Source of the DNA: Gemmatimonadota bacterium
GTDB taxonomy: Bacteria > Gemmatimonadota > Gemmatimonadetes > Longimicrobiales > Gaopeijiaceae
Reading direction: 5' to 3'
DNA: 64,000 nt
Assembly: GCA_027623325.1 (NCBI GenBank)
Contig: JAQBXY010000011.1
Span: 1-64,000, forward strand
Every line of letters begins with the position of its first letter. The first letter of the stretch is position 1. This document shows, in pieces, positions 24,956 to 29,639 of the stretch. The position numbers and the translations under genes were made by a program. The notes under the pieces were generated by a model that worked only from the letters and a program-made list of their open reading frames with translations, was not told the origin of the DNA and searched no databases.

Positions 24956-26404
24956 TTAGACCGCGCAGCAGGACAGCATCTTCACGTCCTTGTCGAACGT
25001 GAGTGCCGCCAGCTTGATACCTTCCGAGTGCGTCAGGTACGGATGCAGCATCGAGGTAATATCGTCGATCGTGAGCCCGAAGCGGATGGCCATGGCAGGC
25101 TCCATGATCATTTCCCCCGCCTCGGGGGCGAGGATGTGAGCGCCCACGATACGCCGCGTCGCTGCGTCGGCGAGCAGCTTGATGAAGCCACGGGTGTCGC
25201 GGGCGGCCAGCGCACGAGGTACGTGCTCGAGGGGCAAGGTGGACACCAGCAGGGTGATCCCCCGCGCTTTCGCCTCCTCCTCGGTCAGGCCAACAAATGC
25301 GACACCCGGGTCGGTAAACGTCACCTGCGGCAGGACCGACAGGTCGAGCGAATCGTCCGCCCCCAACGCATTGTCCGCAGCTAGACTGCCCGCCTTGGCC
25401 GCGACGTATACGTGCATGGGACCCCCGGTGACATCCCCCGCTGCGAAGACCCCGGGCCTCGTCGTTCGTTGGCCGGCATCGACCACGATTTGACCGTGAG
25501 GTCCGATCTGGACGCCCGCGGCCTCGAGGCCCATGCCCGCTGTGTTGGCCCGGCGGCCGGATGCGACCAACAGCGCAACGACCTCCACAGAGTCGCTCGA
25601 GCCCGCCGCGGTGGACATCAGAATCCTCCGCCCCGTCGCTGTCCGTTCGACGGCTGTGACGGCGACACCGGTGCGTACGTCGATCCCTTCTTCGCGCAGA
25701 AAACGAGTCAGCTCCGCGCTCACATCAGGGTCCCCCTTCGACAACACGCGCGACCGCGCCAGCACCGTGACTCGGACACCGAGACGCGCGTACGCTTGCG
25801 CCAGCTCCAATCCCACGGACCCGGCGCCCAGCACCGCGAGCGAAGCCGGCAGCTCCGCGATGTCGAGCAATGCAGTGCTATCCAGAAAACCGGACTCCTC
25901 CAGGCCGGGCACGTCGGGGATCCAGGGAGAGGATCCCGTCGCGATCATGACCGCGTCGGCCCTGACCGCCGTCCCGTCGGCGAGGTGCAAGCACCCGTTT
26001 TCATTTAGGACGCCCCGCCCCTGGACAAGCGTGATCTCTGGGTAGGCGGCGAGAACGTCTTCGTATTTCGCTTTTCGAAGCGCCAACACGAGATCGTCCT
26101 TACCGGCGCGCACACGGCTCCAATCGACGGGGTCGGCAGAAACGGCGATCCCGTCGAACGGATGAAACGCACGTCGGTGCTGCGCCTCGCCCGCCCGGAT
26201 GAGCGTTTTCGAAGGTACGCATCCGACATTTACGCACGTGCCGCCGATCGTGCCCTCCTGCACCATCACCACGCGTGCGCCCGATTCCACCGCGCGGATC
26301 GCGGCCGCAAACCCGGCCGACCCGCCCCCAAGGACTGCTAGCGTACGACCGGCTGGGCGCCCGTTGTCGATCGGATCCGGCGGGCCGCAGTCGCTGTAAC
26401 TCAC
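24956..26404 (-). CDS. merA: Mercuric reductase MerA
   Basis: 482 residues. Reduces Hg(II) to volatile Hg(0) with NADPH in the cytoplasm. The FAD-binding GGGSAGFAAA (27-36), redox pair GGTCVNVGCVPSK (Cys57, Cys62), the second dinucleotide fold LGAGSVGLELAQ and the C-terminal vicinal pair LSCCAV (Cys479, Cys480), which hands Hg(II) to the active site, are all present, so this is a true MerA. It lacks the N-terminal HMA domain many MerA proteins carry. It starts with GTG, whose last three bases form the stop of the upstream merP frame (GTGA), so the two are translationally coupled. Confidence 0.96.
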   Translation of the reverse strand: MSYSDCGPPDPIDNGRPAGRTLAVLGGGSAGFAAAIRAVESGARVVMVQEGTIGGTCVNVGCVPSKTLIRAGEAQHRRAFHPFDGIAVSADPVDWSRVRAGKDDLVLALRKAKYEDVLAAYPEITLVQGRGVLNENGCLHLADGTAVRADAVMIATGSSPWIPDVPGLEESGFLDSTALLDIAELPASLAVLGAGSVGLELAQAYARLGVRVTVLARSRVLSKGDPDVSAELTRFLREEGIDVRTGVAVTAVERTATGRRILMSTAAGSSDSVEVVALLVASGRRANTAGMGLEAAGVQIGPHGQIVVDAGQRTTRPGVFAAGDVTGGPMHVYVAAKAGSLAADNALGADDSLDLSVLPQVTFTDPGVAFVGLTEEEAKARGITLLVSTLPLEHVPRALAARDTRGFIKLLADAATRRIVGAHILAPEAGEMIMEPAMAIRFGLTIDDITSMLHPYLTHSEGIKLAALTFDKDVKMLSCCAV

Positions 26405-26790
26405 GGCTGACGACCGTCCCCGCCGCTCACTCGCACCTGTGCTGTGTACTCGGTCAACCGCTGCAGCTCCGCAATGAACGCCTCCGGCGACGTCAGCGTG
26501 CTGTCGAAGGTCACGAAGCCTTCCCCGAGCGGGTACGAAAACGTCGCATCCCGGACACCTTCAACACGTTCCACGGCCACACGGGCCGCTGTGGCACAGC
26601 CTTCTCACGTCATGCCTGTGACGTCGAGCGCCACCGTCGTGAAGTGGCCGCCCACGTCGGCCATGCTCGCCGCCATCTCGCTGTGCTCCCTCGCCGCATG
26701 ATCCATGTCGGCGTCGTCGTGGCGCGGGATCTGGAGGAGGATTCCACCTCCGATCACCAGTGCCACAGCGGACCATTGTTTCCAACCCAT
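26401..26790 (-). CDS. merP: MerP-like membrane-anchored HMA protein with in-frame TGA (candidate selenocysteine)
   Basis: 129 residues if the TGA at 26605-26607 is read as selenocysteine. Residues 1-20 form a membrane anchor; residues 21-50 are a His/Met/Asp-rich linker; residues 52-118 are a heavy-metal-associated domain. The metal site, normally GMTCxxC, reads GMT-TGA-EGC (position 62, Cys65). After the TGA the frame stays open for 67 codons with typical HMA features (VEGVRDATFSY, GFVTFDS) and ends at 26401 in a GTGA overlap with merA. GGAGGAGAG precedes the ATG at 26790. Role by context: passes Hg(II) from outside to MerT. Without Sec insertion the product would be a 61-residue anchor lacking the metal site. 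A nonsense mutation of Cys is the alternative. Confidence 0.8.
26576..26607 (-). promoter_or_regulatory. Candidate bacterial SECIS hairpin after the merP TGA
   Basis: Nine bases after the TGA (26607-26605) the mRNA can form a perfect 6-bp stem, GCCACA (26595-26590) with UGUGGC (26581-26576). It closes an 8-base loop GCGGCCCG that begins with G. The apical loop begins 16 bases after the TGA. Spacing, stem and the G at the loop start agree with my recollection of the bacterial SECIS consensus. The stem lies inside coding sequence, as in bacterial selenoprotein genes. It was found by eye and no folding energy was computed. Confidence 0.55.
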
Positions 26791-26804: not shown

Positions 26805-27137
26805 TTAGAAGACGAGCGTCTGCCAGCTCGGGAATGTCGCGAAGGTCACGGCGACAGCCGTCGCGACCCACAGAGTGACCTTCATGCGCTTGCGAACGGC
26901 GGGATCGGCACAAGATCTCCCCACCTCGCAGGCTGCCTTTTCCTCTCGGTCGAGCTGCCAAGAGCCGAACACCAGAAACGCTGCCGTCACAATCAGAAAA
27001 TAGGGGCGTAGCGGCTCGAAGGCAGATAGGCCCGCACTAGAGACGCCCAGGCTGGCCGCAACTACCGGCCCACCGCAACACAGAGCAGAGCCAGCCGCAG
27101 CGGAGACGCCGCCTACGCTGTTCAGCGTCGTTTTCAT
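26805..27137 (-). CDS. merT: Mercuric ion transporter MerT
   Basis: 110 residues with three membrane helices. The vicinal cysteine pair in the first helix (LCCGG, Cys20-Cys21) and the second pair on the cytoplasmic loop (Cys70, Cys76) are the known Hg(II) relay of MerT. It imports Hg(II) delivered by MerP and passes it to MerA. The ATG at 27137 was chosen (AGGGA 4 bases ahead); a GTG at 27149 with GGGAGG 5 bases ahead is almost as good. It lies 33 bases after merR and 14 bases before merP. Confidence 0.95.
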   Translation of the reverse strand: MKTTLNSVGGVSAAAGSALCCGGPVVAASLGVSSAGLSAFEPLRPYFLIVTAAFLVFGSWQLDREEKAACEVGRSCADPAVRKRMKVTLWVATAVAVTFATFPSWQTLVF

Positions 27138-27170
27138 CAGTTCCCTCACATTCACCTCCCTAGGTTCCGG

Positions 27171-27584
27171 CTACGACCGTTCGTCGAGCTCTTCGAGGAT
27201 GGGACAGTCGCTGGTCGGCTGTCGGGCCTCGCACTTGTCGACGAGCCGGCGCAGCGAAGCACCGATCCTTTTCAGATCGACGATCTTCGCGTCCACCTGT
27301 TCCAGTTTCTCCCGCGCGCGCACTTCCACGGGGCCGCACGCCGACACTTCGTCGACCCGAAGCGCCAGCAGTTCCGCGACTTCACTCAAGGTGAAACCAA
27401 GTTCCTGCGCCCGTCGGATGAACCGGAGCCGTTGCACGGACTCCTGTGGATAACGCCGGTAACCCGCCGGTGAGCGTGGGGGGGCGTCGATGAGACCCTT
27501 GTTCTCGTAGAACCGGATCGTTTCGCGCCCCACGTCCGCAGCACCCGCTAGCGCGCCGATCGTGAGCGTCTCGTCGTGTGACAT
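27171..27584 (-). CDS. merR: Mercury-responsive transcriptional regulator MerR
   Basis: 137 residues. An N-terminal MerR winged helix (LTIGALAGAADVGRETIRFYENKGLI) precedes a dimerization helix. The three Hg(II)-binding cysteines are at 83, 118 and 127, nearly the positions of the well-studied MerR (82, 117, 126), so it should be a true Hg sensor. Unlike proteobacterial operons, merR is the first gene of the structural operon instead of being divergent. No Shine-Dalgarno precedes the ATG, and the predicted transcription start falls at or next to it, suggesting a leaderless message. Confidence 0.95.
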   Translation of the reverse strand: MSHDETLTIGALAGAADVGRETIRFYENKGLIDAPPRSPAGYRRYPQESVQRLRFIRRAQELGFTLSEVAELLALRVDEVSACGPVEVRAREKLEQVDAKIVDLKRIGASLRRLVDKCEARQPTSDCPILEELDERS

Positions 27585-27590
27585 GGTCGA

Positions 27591-27621
27591 AAGTAAACCC
27601 TGTAGTGTGGTACAGGGTCAA
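27591..27621 (-). promoter_or_regulatory. MerR operator/promoter of the mer operon
   Basis: A perfect 8-bp dyad ACCCTGTA-N6-TACAGGGT spans 27597-27618. On the minus strand the -35 TTGACC (27621-27616) and -10 TTACTT (27596-27591) are separated by 19 bases, the long spacer that makes MerR promoters need Hg-bound MerR to be twisted into activity. The dyad fills the spacer exactly. The promoter reads into merR at 27584. Confidence 0.88.
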
Positions 27622-27754: not shown

Positions 27755-29146
27755 ATGACCCCCACGAATCCGGAACGCATGGACGCGATCATCATCGGGA
27801 CCGGTCAGGGCGGAAAGCCACTGGCAGGCGCTCTGGCAGAAGCGGGGTGGAACTGTGCGGTGATCGAGCGCGACCGGATCGGCGGGACGTGTGTGATTCG
27901 GGGTTGTACGCCCACGAAGACGATGGTCGCCAGCGCGAGGATCGCCCATCTGGCCCGAAGGGCGAGCGACTACGGCATCGGCACGGGTGAGGTCACCGTC
28001 GACCTCTCGACGGTGCGGAAACGAAAACGCGACATCGTCGACGCGTGGAGCGCGGGCAGCCGAAAGGGGCTGGAGCGTCATCCGACGCTCGATCTGATTC
28101 TCGGCACGGCGCGATTCACGGCACCTGGTACGGTCGAAGTGGATCTGAACGACGGTGGCGTGCGCACGCTCACGTCGGATCACATCTTCATCAACGTGGG
28201 CGCACGAAATCGAATCCCCGACATCGCGGGACTCGAGGCGGTCGACTTCCTCGATTCGACTTCGATCATGGAACTCGACAGCGTCCCCGGACACCTGATC
28301 GTCCTCGGAGGCGGATTCATCGGGCTCGAGTTCGGGCAGATGTTCCGCCGGTTTGGCGCCGAGGTCACCGTCGTCGACCATTCGGGCATCGCCGGGCGCG
28401 AGGACTCGGACATCTCGGAAGCGATTGAGAAGATCCTTCGAGGGGAGGGCATCGAGATCGTGTACCCCGCAGTGCCTCACACCGTGGCCTCGATCAACGG
28501 CGGCGTAGAAGTCACCGTGGAAAGCGGTGGGCAGGAGCGGGTCCTCCGGGGAAGTCACCTGCTGGTCGCCGTCGGGATCGTACCGAACAGCGACACGCTC
28601 AATCTGAGCTCGGCCGGAATCGCCGTCGGAGAACGTGGCGAGATTCTGGTGGACGACCGGTGCCAGACCAACGTTCCCGGCGTGTGGGCCCTCGGCGATG
28701 TCACGGGCGCTCCCCCCTTCACTCATACGGCGTACGACGACTACCGCATCATCGCCAATAACGTCCTCGAAGGCGGCGACGCCTCCCGGAATGGGCGAAT
28801 CCTTTCCTACGCCGTCTTCATCGATCCCCAGCTGGGTCGCGTGGGCTTGTCCGAGCGCGACGCCGAGGCAGCGGGACTGAACTACCGCGTCGCGAAACTC
28901 CCCATGAGTCGCGTGGCACGCGCCATCGAGATGGACGAAACCCGAGGGTTCATGAAAGCCGTCGTGGACGCTGACACCGACGAGATCCTCGGGGCCGCGA
29001 TCCTGGGGATCGAAGGCGGTGAGGTCGTCACCGTGTTACAAGTGGCGATGATGGGCGGGCTTCCCTGGACAGCCCTGCGCGATGCCATGATCGCCCACCC
29101 GACCCTTTCCGAGTCGCTGAACAATCTCTTCATGACCTTGAAGTAG
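27755..29146 (+). CDS. FAD-dependent pyridine nucleotide-disulfide oxidoreductase
   Basis: 463 residues of the MerA/lipoamide dehydrogenase family. GTGQGGKPLAGAL binds FAD, the redox disulfide is in GGTCVIRGCTPTKT, and LGGGFIGLEFGQ binds NAD(P)H. The C-terminal HPTLSESLNNL carries the catalytic His. It lacks the CC tail of MerA, so it is not a standard mercuric reductase, though such proteins are often labelled as one. It is transcribed away from the mer operon across the MerR operator region. An alternative start is the ATG at 27779. Substrate unknown. Confidence 0.85.
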   Translation: MTPTNPERMDAIIIGTGQGGKPLAGALAEAGWNCAVIERDRIGGTCVIRGCTPTKTMVASARIAHLARRASDYGIGTGEVTVDLSTVRKRKRDIVDAWSAGSRKGLERHPTLDLILGTARFTAPGTVEVDLNDGGVRTLTSDHIFINVGARNRIPDIAGLEAVDFLDSTSIMELDSVPGHLIVLGGGFIGLEFGQMFRRFGAEVTVVDHSGIAGREDSDISEAIEKILRGEGIEIVYPAVPHTVASINGGVEVTVESGGQERVLRGSHLLVAVGIVPNSDTLNLSSAGIAVGERGEILVDDRCQTNVPGVWALGDVTGAPPFTHTAYDDYRIIANNVLEGGDASRNGRILSYAVFIDPQLGRVGLSERDAEAAGLNYRVAKLPMSRVARAIEMDETRGFMKAVVDADTDEILGAAILGIEGGEVVTVLQVAMMGGLPWTALRDAMIAHPTLSESLNNLFMTLK

Positions 29147-29174: not shown

Positions 29175-29639
29175 ATGAACGCCAGCAAACTCGTGGAGTG
29201 CGTCCGGCAGACGGTCCTCATGTCCGGGTATCTCGGCTCGATCGGCTTCGCCTTTCCGGCAGCCATGGGGGCGTGGGCGGCGACTCTCGAGGATGAGCCA
29301 CGCTTCAACGGCCGGCCCGTCGTGAGCATCTCCGGCGATGGAGGCTTCGGTCAGTACATGGCGGAACTCACCACCGCGGTGAAATACAACATGAACATCA
29401 CGCACGTTCTGTTGAACAACGAAGAGCTGGGCAAGATCTCAAAAGAGCAGCGTTCGGCGGAGCTCGACGTGTGGCAGACATCGCTGATCAACCCGAACTT
29501 CGCGCAGTACGCGGACAACTGCGGCGCCCTGGGCATCCGCGTCGAGCGCGACGCCGACCTGGAGGGCGCGCTCGTCAAGGCTCTCTCTCACAACGGCCCT
29601 GCCCTGGTCGAGATTCTCACGGACGCAGCCCTGATCTGA
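29175..29639 (+). pseudogene. C-terminal fragment of a thiamine diphosphate enzyme
   Basis: 154 residues that match only the ThDP-binding C-terminal domain of acetolactate synthase/pyruvate oxidase-type enzymes, which are normally 550-600 residues. GYLGSIGFAFPAAMGAW opens it, then the ThDP/Mg motif GDGGFGQYMAELTTAVKYN ending in LLNNEE. The substrate and FAD-like middle domains are missing and nothing of them lies upstream, where another gene ends 28 bases before. Probably a truncated remnant, although an ATG with GGGAG-like RBS (GATGGGAGC) could still express it. Confidence 0.7.

Follow-up and report, generated by a model that had tools for sequence, protein, structure and literature searches.

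Most described selenoproteins are redox enzymes, and the toxicity of mercury is widely linked to the affinity of Hg for selenium. The HMA domain, which is the fold of the mercury-binding protein MerP, serves in proteins that carry copper, zinc and cadmium as well. A small number of selenoproteins with domains of this kind have already entered published inventories. Specifically, the marine Global Ocean Sampling survey of 2008 lists a selenocysteine (Sec)-containing ‘Mercuric transport protein MerP’ with two sequences (PMC2398784), and reviews mention NF041115, a metal-binding protein with a UxxU motif, together with a MerT-type selenoprotein (PF02411) and a cation ATPase of the UxxC type (PMC9312934, PMC13188914). 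According to a 2026 review, what these selenoproteins do precisely in heavy-metal detoxification requires more investigation (PMC13188914).

The locus described here lies within a 64,000-nucleotide stretch of DNA (the window) from a Gemmatimonadota bacterium (GenBank assembly GCA_027623325.1, contig JAQBXY010000011.1). A sequence-only reading of the window had noted a MerP-like gene in which a TGA codon replaces a metal-binding Cys codon, and had mentioned that Sec-containing proteins of this type appear in metagenomic surveys, a statement that the Global Ocean Sampling entry bears out. This entry is a table listing without motif, operon, organism or function; it resembles our protein by name, and the two may belong to the same family. 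Sec-containing MerP is thus a kind already known from lists, though unstudied, to which we consider the window protein a well-supported addition. The present analysis extends this knowledge with a complete mer operon, a specific group of organisms, 20 homologues, a covarying candidate for a Sec insertion sequence (SECIS), and a counterpart carrying Cys from a genome in which no Sec machinery was detected.

The window protein resembles MerP (TIGR02052; structures 1AFI and 1OSD) in its HMA fold, in the position of the GMTCxxC motif and in its probable extracytoplasmic location, and the gene likewise lies between merT and merA. In contrast to MerP, it carries a predicted Sec as the first metal-binding residue and, judging from its N-terminus, apparently retains an N-terminal anchor, whereas the signal peptide of MerP is cleaved off. 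Its score against TIGR02052 is 35.7 bits, below the equivalog cut-off of 92.55, and we therefore call the protein MerP-like and regard it as a functional counterpart by context. The best NCBIfam match is the HMA-type selenoprotein family NF041115 (UxxU_metal_bind), although at 60.5 bits this match is also below the cut-off (95). All 22 aligned relatives match NF041115, but that family is defined by two Sec residues (UxxU), whereas the window family exhibits a UxxC arrangement with Cys as the invariant second ligand. Finally, the MerT/CopZ fusion-like selenoprotein NF045683 combines a MerT-type membrane part and an HMA domain in one protein, whereas the window carries separate merT and merP genes.

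A MerP-like gene interrupted by an in-frame TGA codon

The merP-like gene occupies positions 26401 to 26790 on the minus strand and encodes 129 amino acids when a Sec residue at codon 62 is counted. Its ATG start codon at 26790 is preceded by AAGGAGGAGAGATCGA, a strong ribosome-binding site. The hydrophobic N-terminus, AVALVIGGGILLQIP, includes a membrane anchor at approximately residues 5 to 21 and a conserved ILLQIPxH sequence evident in the homologue alignment. A His/Asp-rich linker connects this segment to an HMA domain spanning approximately residues 50 to 119. The in-frame TGA (26605 to 26607, minus strand) encodes the first position of a GMTUxxC metal motif within TVALDVTGMT-TGA-EGCATAARVAV, which runs on into the full HMA domain. 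The second metal ligand, Cys65, is encoded by TGT at 26596 to 26598 on the same strand, and is invariant across all aligned homologues.

After the TGA, 67 codons remain open and match the HMA family (Pfam PF00403, E=1.2e-8), and the frame ends at a second TGA (26403 to 26401) that overlaps the GTG start codon of merA (26404) as GTGA. The sequence and coordinates given in the sequence-only reading are correct. Standard ORF calling splits this gene, leaving a short anchor peptide and losing the HMA domain.

The same reading had placed the TGA at the first metal-binding Cys. This assignment holds, as in alignments U62 falls on the first Cys of the MerP, CopZ and NmerA domains. A profile of the family matches the MerP structures 1OSD (2.8e-16) and 1AFI (8.2e-16), and also matches CopA and ATP7B domains, CopZ and NmerA. 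Modelling from the single sequence gave a poor structure, whereas an alignment of 22 homologues yielded a model with a pLDDT of approximately 97 across the HMA domain. This model superimposes on MerP 1OSD with a TM score of 0.91 (by target length) and an rmsd of 1.1, and U62 occupies the place of the first Cys in MerP. The protein therefore combines the HMA fold with a GMTCxxC-type metal site of the MerP kind in which the first Cys is replaced by a predicted Sec.

Homologues and Sec machinery support decoding of the TGA

Homologues were sought in 121 genomes from the bacterium's own family and 395 of the phylum. Twenty homologous genes from 18 Gemmatimonadota genomes, the window gene included, encode this anchored protein and share the TGA codon in its position, a recurrence far beyond chance. 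Distinct relatives of this type are approximately 33 to 69% identical to the window protein. All close matches that carry organism names are from Gemmatimonadota, and a pattern scan of the closer subset recovered only close relatives from this phylum together with distant Cys-type HMA proteins. Searches of viral contigs and of plasmids revealed no relatives of the protein.

Codon and stop analyses were conducted with 19 distinct copies of the TGA genes. None of these contains an in-frame stop over the 55 codons past the TGA, whereas the +1 frame contains one to five, and the median dN/dS downstream of the TGA is approximately 0.27. Purifying selection past the TGA, which had been proposed as a check on the original claim, is therefore present.

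The source genome also carries the machinery that Sec incorporation would demand, another point on which the claim had been expected to turn. All four components are present: tRNA-Sec with anticodon TCA, selB (324 bits, above cut-off), selA (459 bits) and selD, which has an in-frame TGA of its own (GAGUACK). SelA is found in all 18 genomes that hold a TGA-type merP, compared with 92 of 121 genomes of the same family at large (the chance of 13 out of 13 is approximately 0.02). A tRNA-Sec was found in 16 of the 18; the two genomes in which the search did not find it are drafts estimated to be 81% and 90% complete.

These data bear on the possibility that the TGA reflects a Cys-to-stop mutation, a sequencing error or a pseudogene, in which case translation would stop at residue 61. 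Only one substitution separates TGA from TGC or TGT, and the source genome is a draft of 60 contigs. However, the same TGA recurs in 20 genes with an open and constrained downstream frame, and every genome concerned has SelA. We consider such an origin exceedingly improbable, and the homologues exclude mutation, pseudogene formation and assembly error alike.

In close homologues the codon for residue 62 is TGA, but one anchored relative carries Cys (GMTCDGC), and in its genome, which is 99% complete (G065), neither SelA nor tRNA-Sec was found. This Cys form falls inside a clade with 14 Sec-type sequences (support 97/97), although it sits on a long branch and its placement is unsure. More distant Cys forms occur in three genomes that have Sec machinery (G133, G212 and G055), and thus Cys is not restricted to genomes that lack it.

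The selD gene of the source genome (locus L016 on contig C8 of genome G000, reverse strand) is predicted to encode a selenoprotein itself. A possible hairpin, CUCGG-GAUGU-CCGAG, begins after 9 nt downstream of its UGA.

A conserved hairpin resides downstream of the TGA

A hairpin in the position expected for a bacterial SECIS element (bSECIS) had also been proposed from the sequence alone. A conserved hairpin does exist there, at 26589 to 26573 on the minus strand (GCGGCC-CGUGU-GGCCGU), but it is not the one that was drawn. The stem formed by GCCACA and TGTGGC is present in the window sequence and overlaps the conserved hairpin, yet it is not itself conserved. We rejected it as a SECIS candidate because only 79% of its pair cells are paired among homologues, a value no better than that of shuffles, and because one of its pairs is broken in 11 of 19 sequences.

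The conserved hairpin, with consensus GCGGCC-CGKGU-GGCCGU, spans 16 to 32 nt after the TGA, and its loop starts 22 nt past that codon. In the homologue alignment, 94.7% of its pair cells are paired, and compensatory changes are evident at two pairs (C-G to U-A in L054 and G-C to A-U in L060), a number reached in only 8 of 500 shuffles. Furthermore, codons 6, 7, 9, 10 and 11 after the TGA have a synonymous entropy of 0 to 0.37 bits, compared with a mean of 1.56 bits at later four- or six-fold codons, whereas the third base of codon 8, which lies in the loop, is free to vary between G and T. These five codons are the lowest of 30 columns, with p of approximately 0.001 when any window is allowed, a value that assumes exchangeable columns and takes the sequences as given. 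Folding of the region as a single sequence gave a structure no better than shuffles (z=0.60).

The hairpin thus lies just past the UGA with a G within the first two loop positions; this G is invariant and occupies the second position. We take both the location of the loop and the G to agree with the bacterial SECIS consensus. Conservation, covariation and synonymous constraint all point to this element as a likely bSECIS-like apical stem-loop.

Readthrough of the TGA need not involve Sec, and an open frame past this codon would also be observed if an altered genetic code or plain readthrough inserted another amino acid. We assign this explanation almost no credence. TGA works as an ordinary stop, including at the end of merP itself, the homologues reveal Cys in some cases but never Trp at residue 62, and both the hairpin and the machinery fit Sec. 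Recoding of this kind is rejected on the homologue evidence, and we conclude from these comparisons that TGA62 is almost certainly a Sec codon.

The gene resides in a mercury-resistance operon

On the minus strand of the window, the merP-like gene is embedded in a mercury-resistance operon with the order merR-merT-merP-merA. The merT gene (26805 to 27155, minus strand; Pfam PF02411, 1.3e-19) encodes the inner-membrane transporter for mercuric ions, whose first membrane segment contains a Cys-Cys pair and which has two more Cys residues. Downstream of merP, merA (24956 to 26404, minus strand) encodes a mercuric reductase (TIGR02053, 554 bits, above the cut-off of 454) with a GTCVNVGC active site and a C-terminal Cys-Cys pair. 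Pfam and NCBIfam profile searches found no N-terminal HMA domain in its product.

The merR-type regulator gene (27171 to 27584, minus strand) matches TIGR02051 (1.2e-40), slightly below the equivalog cut-off, and its product has a Cys spacing that we take to be that of Hg(II)-sensing MerR proteins. Just upstream of merR is a candidate MerR-type operator (27597 to 27618, minus strand), a perfect 8-bp dyad, ACCCTGTA-N6-TACAGGGT, that follows TTGACC as in MerR-controlled promoters. The location of this dyad suggests that the operon begins with merR.

Among the 20 TGA genes, merT lies immediately upstream in 18, the window counted. In contrast, merA is directly downstream in only five (the window, L051, L052, L057 and L058), and the identity of the transported metal is therefore less certain in some relatives. 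Five others (L049, L050, L053, L055 and L061) have a downstream ORF of 94 to 108 amino acids instead of merA, mostly with a VYFEGCPN-type motif that appears thioredoxin-like by eye; one of these YFEGCPN ORFs was tested and has no Pfam match. At L054 (genome G090), the region downstream of merP translates to a run of X residues, indicating masked or unknown bases, and in other relatives the ORF after merP bears no relation to merA.

A proposed role for Sec as a mercury ligand

MerP is the protein that binds mercury outside the cytoplasm in the mer system, and we consider it quite probable that the gene specifies a selenoprotein version of it, which is made by hairpin-guided decoding of Sec and captures Hg(II) for transfer to MerT and reduction by MerA. 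UGA62 would be decoded by tRNA-Sec and SelB under the guidance of the hairpin, and the anchor predicted from the N-terminal sequence would hold the protein so that its HMA domain lies in the periplasm. There, Sec62 and Cys65 would capture Hg(II) as a two-coordinate Se/S complex. The Cys-Cys pair of MerT would then take over the ion, which would be brought into the cell and reduced by MerA. Because MerA lacks its own HMA domain, MerT presumably hands Hg(II) straight to this enzyme. We infer the capture and hand-over steps from the biochemistry of the MerP and MerT families, the conserved gene neighbourhood and the Hg-type MerR regulator.

The general chemistry of Se and Hg, including their known affinity, suggests what would be gained. 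Compared to a thiol, a selenium ligand would be deprotonated at lower pH, bind Hg(II) more tightly and exchange it faster. However, very tight binding of Hg by selenium could also slow hand-over, which counts against a relay function.

An alternative is that the protein is a true selenoprotein whose Sec-Cys pair serves redox chemistry or another soft metal (Cu, Cd or As), with mercury being incidental. A redox protein of this type might use selenenylsulfide chemistry, reduce oxidised MerT or guard against oxidation. Bacterial Sec resides mostly in redox proteins (PMC9312934), HMA domains are by sequence chiefly Cu carriers, and the thioredoxin-like YFEGCPN ORF takes the place of merA in some relatives. 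Nevertheless, the surroundings are mer-like, with MerT adjacent in nearly all cases and both MerA and a MerR-type regulator present in the window, and the HMA domain is a metal carrier fold rather than a thioredoxin fold. We therefore regard a redox or other-metal function as unlikely.

If the protein is indeed a mercury-binding selenoprotein, its Sec residue would act as a metal ligand, unlike the Sec of redox enzymes, and the bacterium seems to exploit on purpose the affinity of Hg for selenium. A broader proposal, to which we give an even chance, is that Gemmatimonadota use Sec as a dedicated Hg(II) ligand in an operon for mercury uptake and reduction, that their mercury resistance consequently depends on the supply of selenium, and that Sec was exchanged for Cys where the selenium machinery was lost. 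The Cys version of this pathway is biochemically well understood, and so Sec and Cys forms can be compared directly by experiment.

Two additional genes are adjacent to the operon and divergent from it. The first (27755 to 29146, plus strand) encodes a second MerA-like FAD oxidoreductase, of the PRK06370 type. It is followed by a short ORF (29175 to 29639, plus strand) that covers no more of a TPP enzyme than its C-terminal domain.
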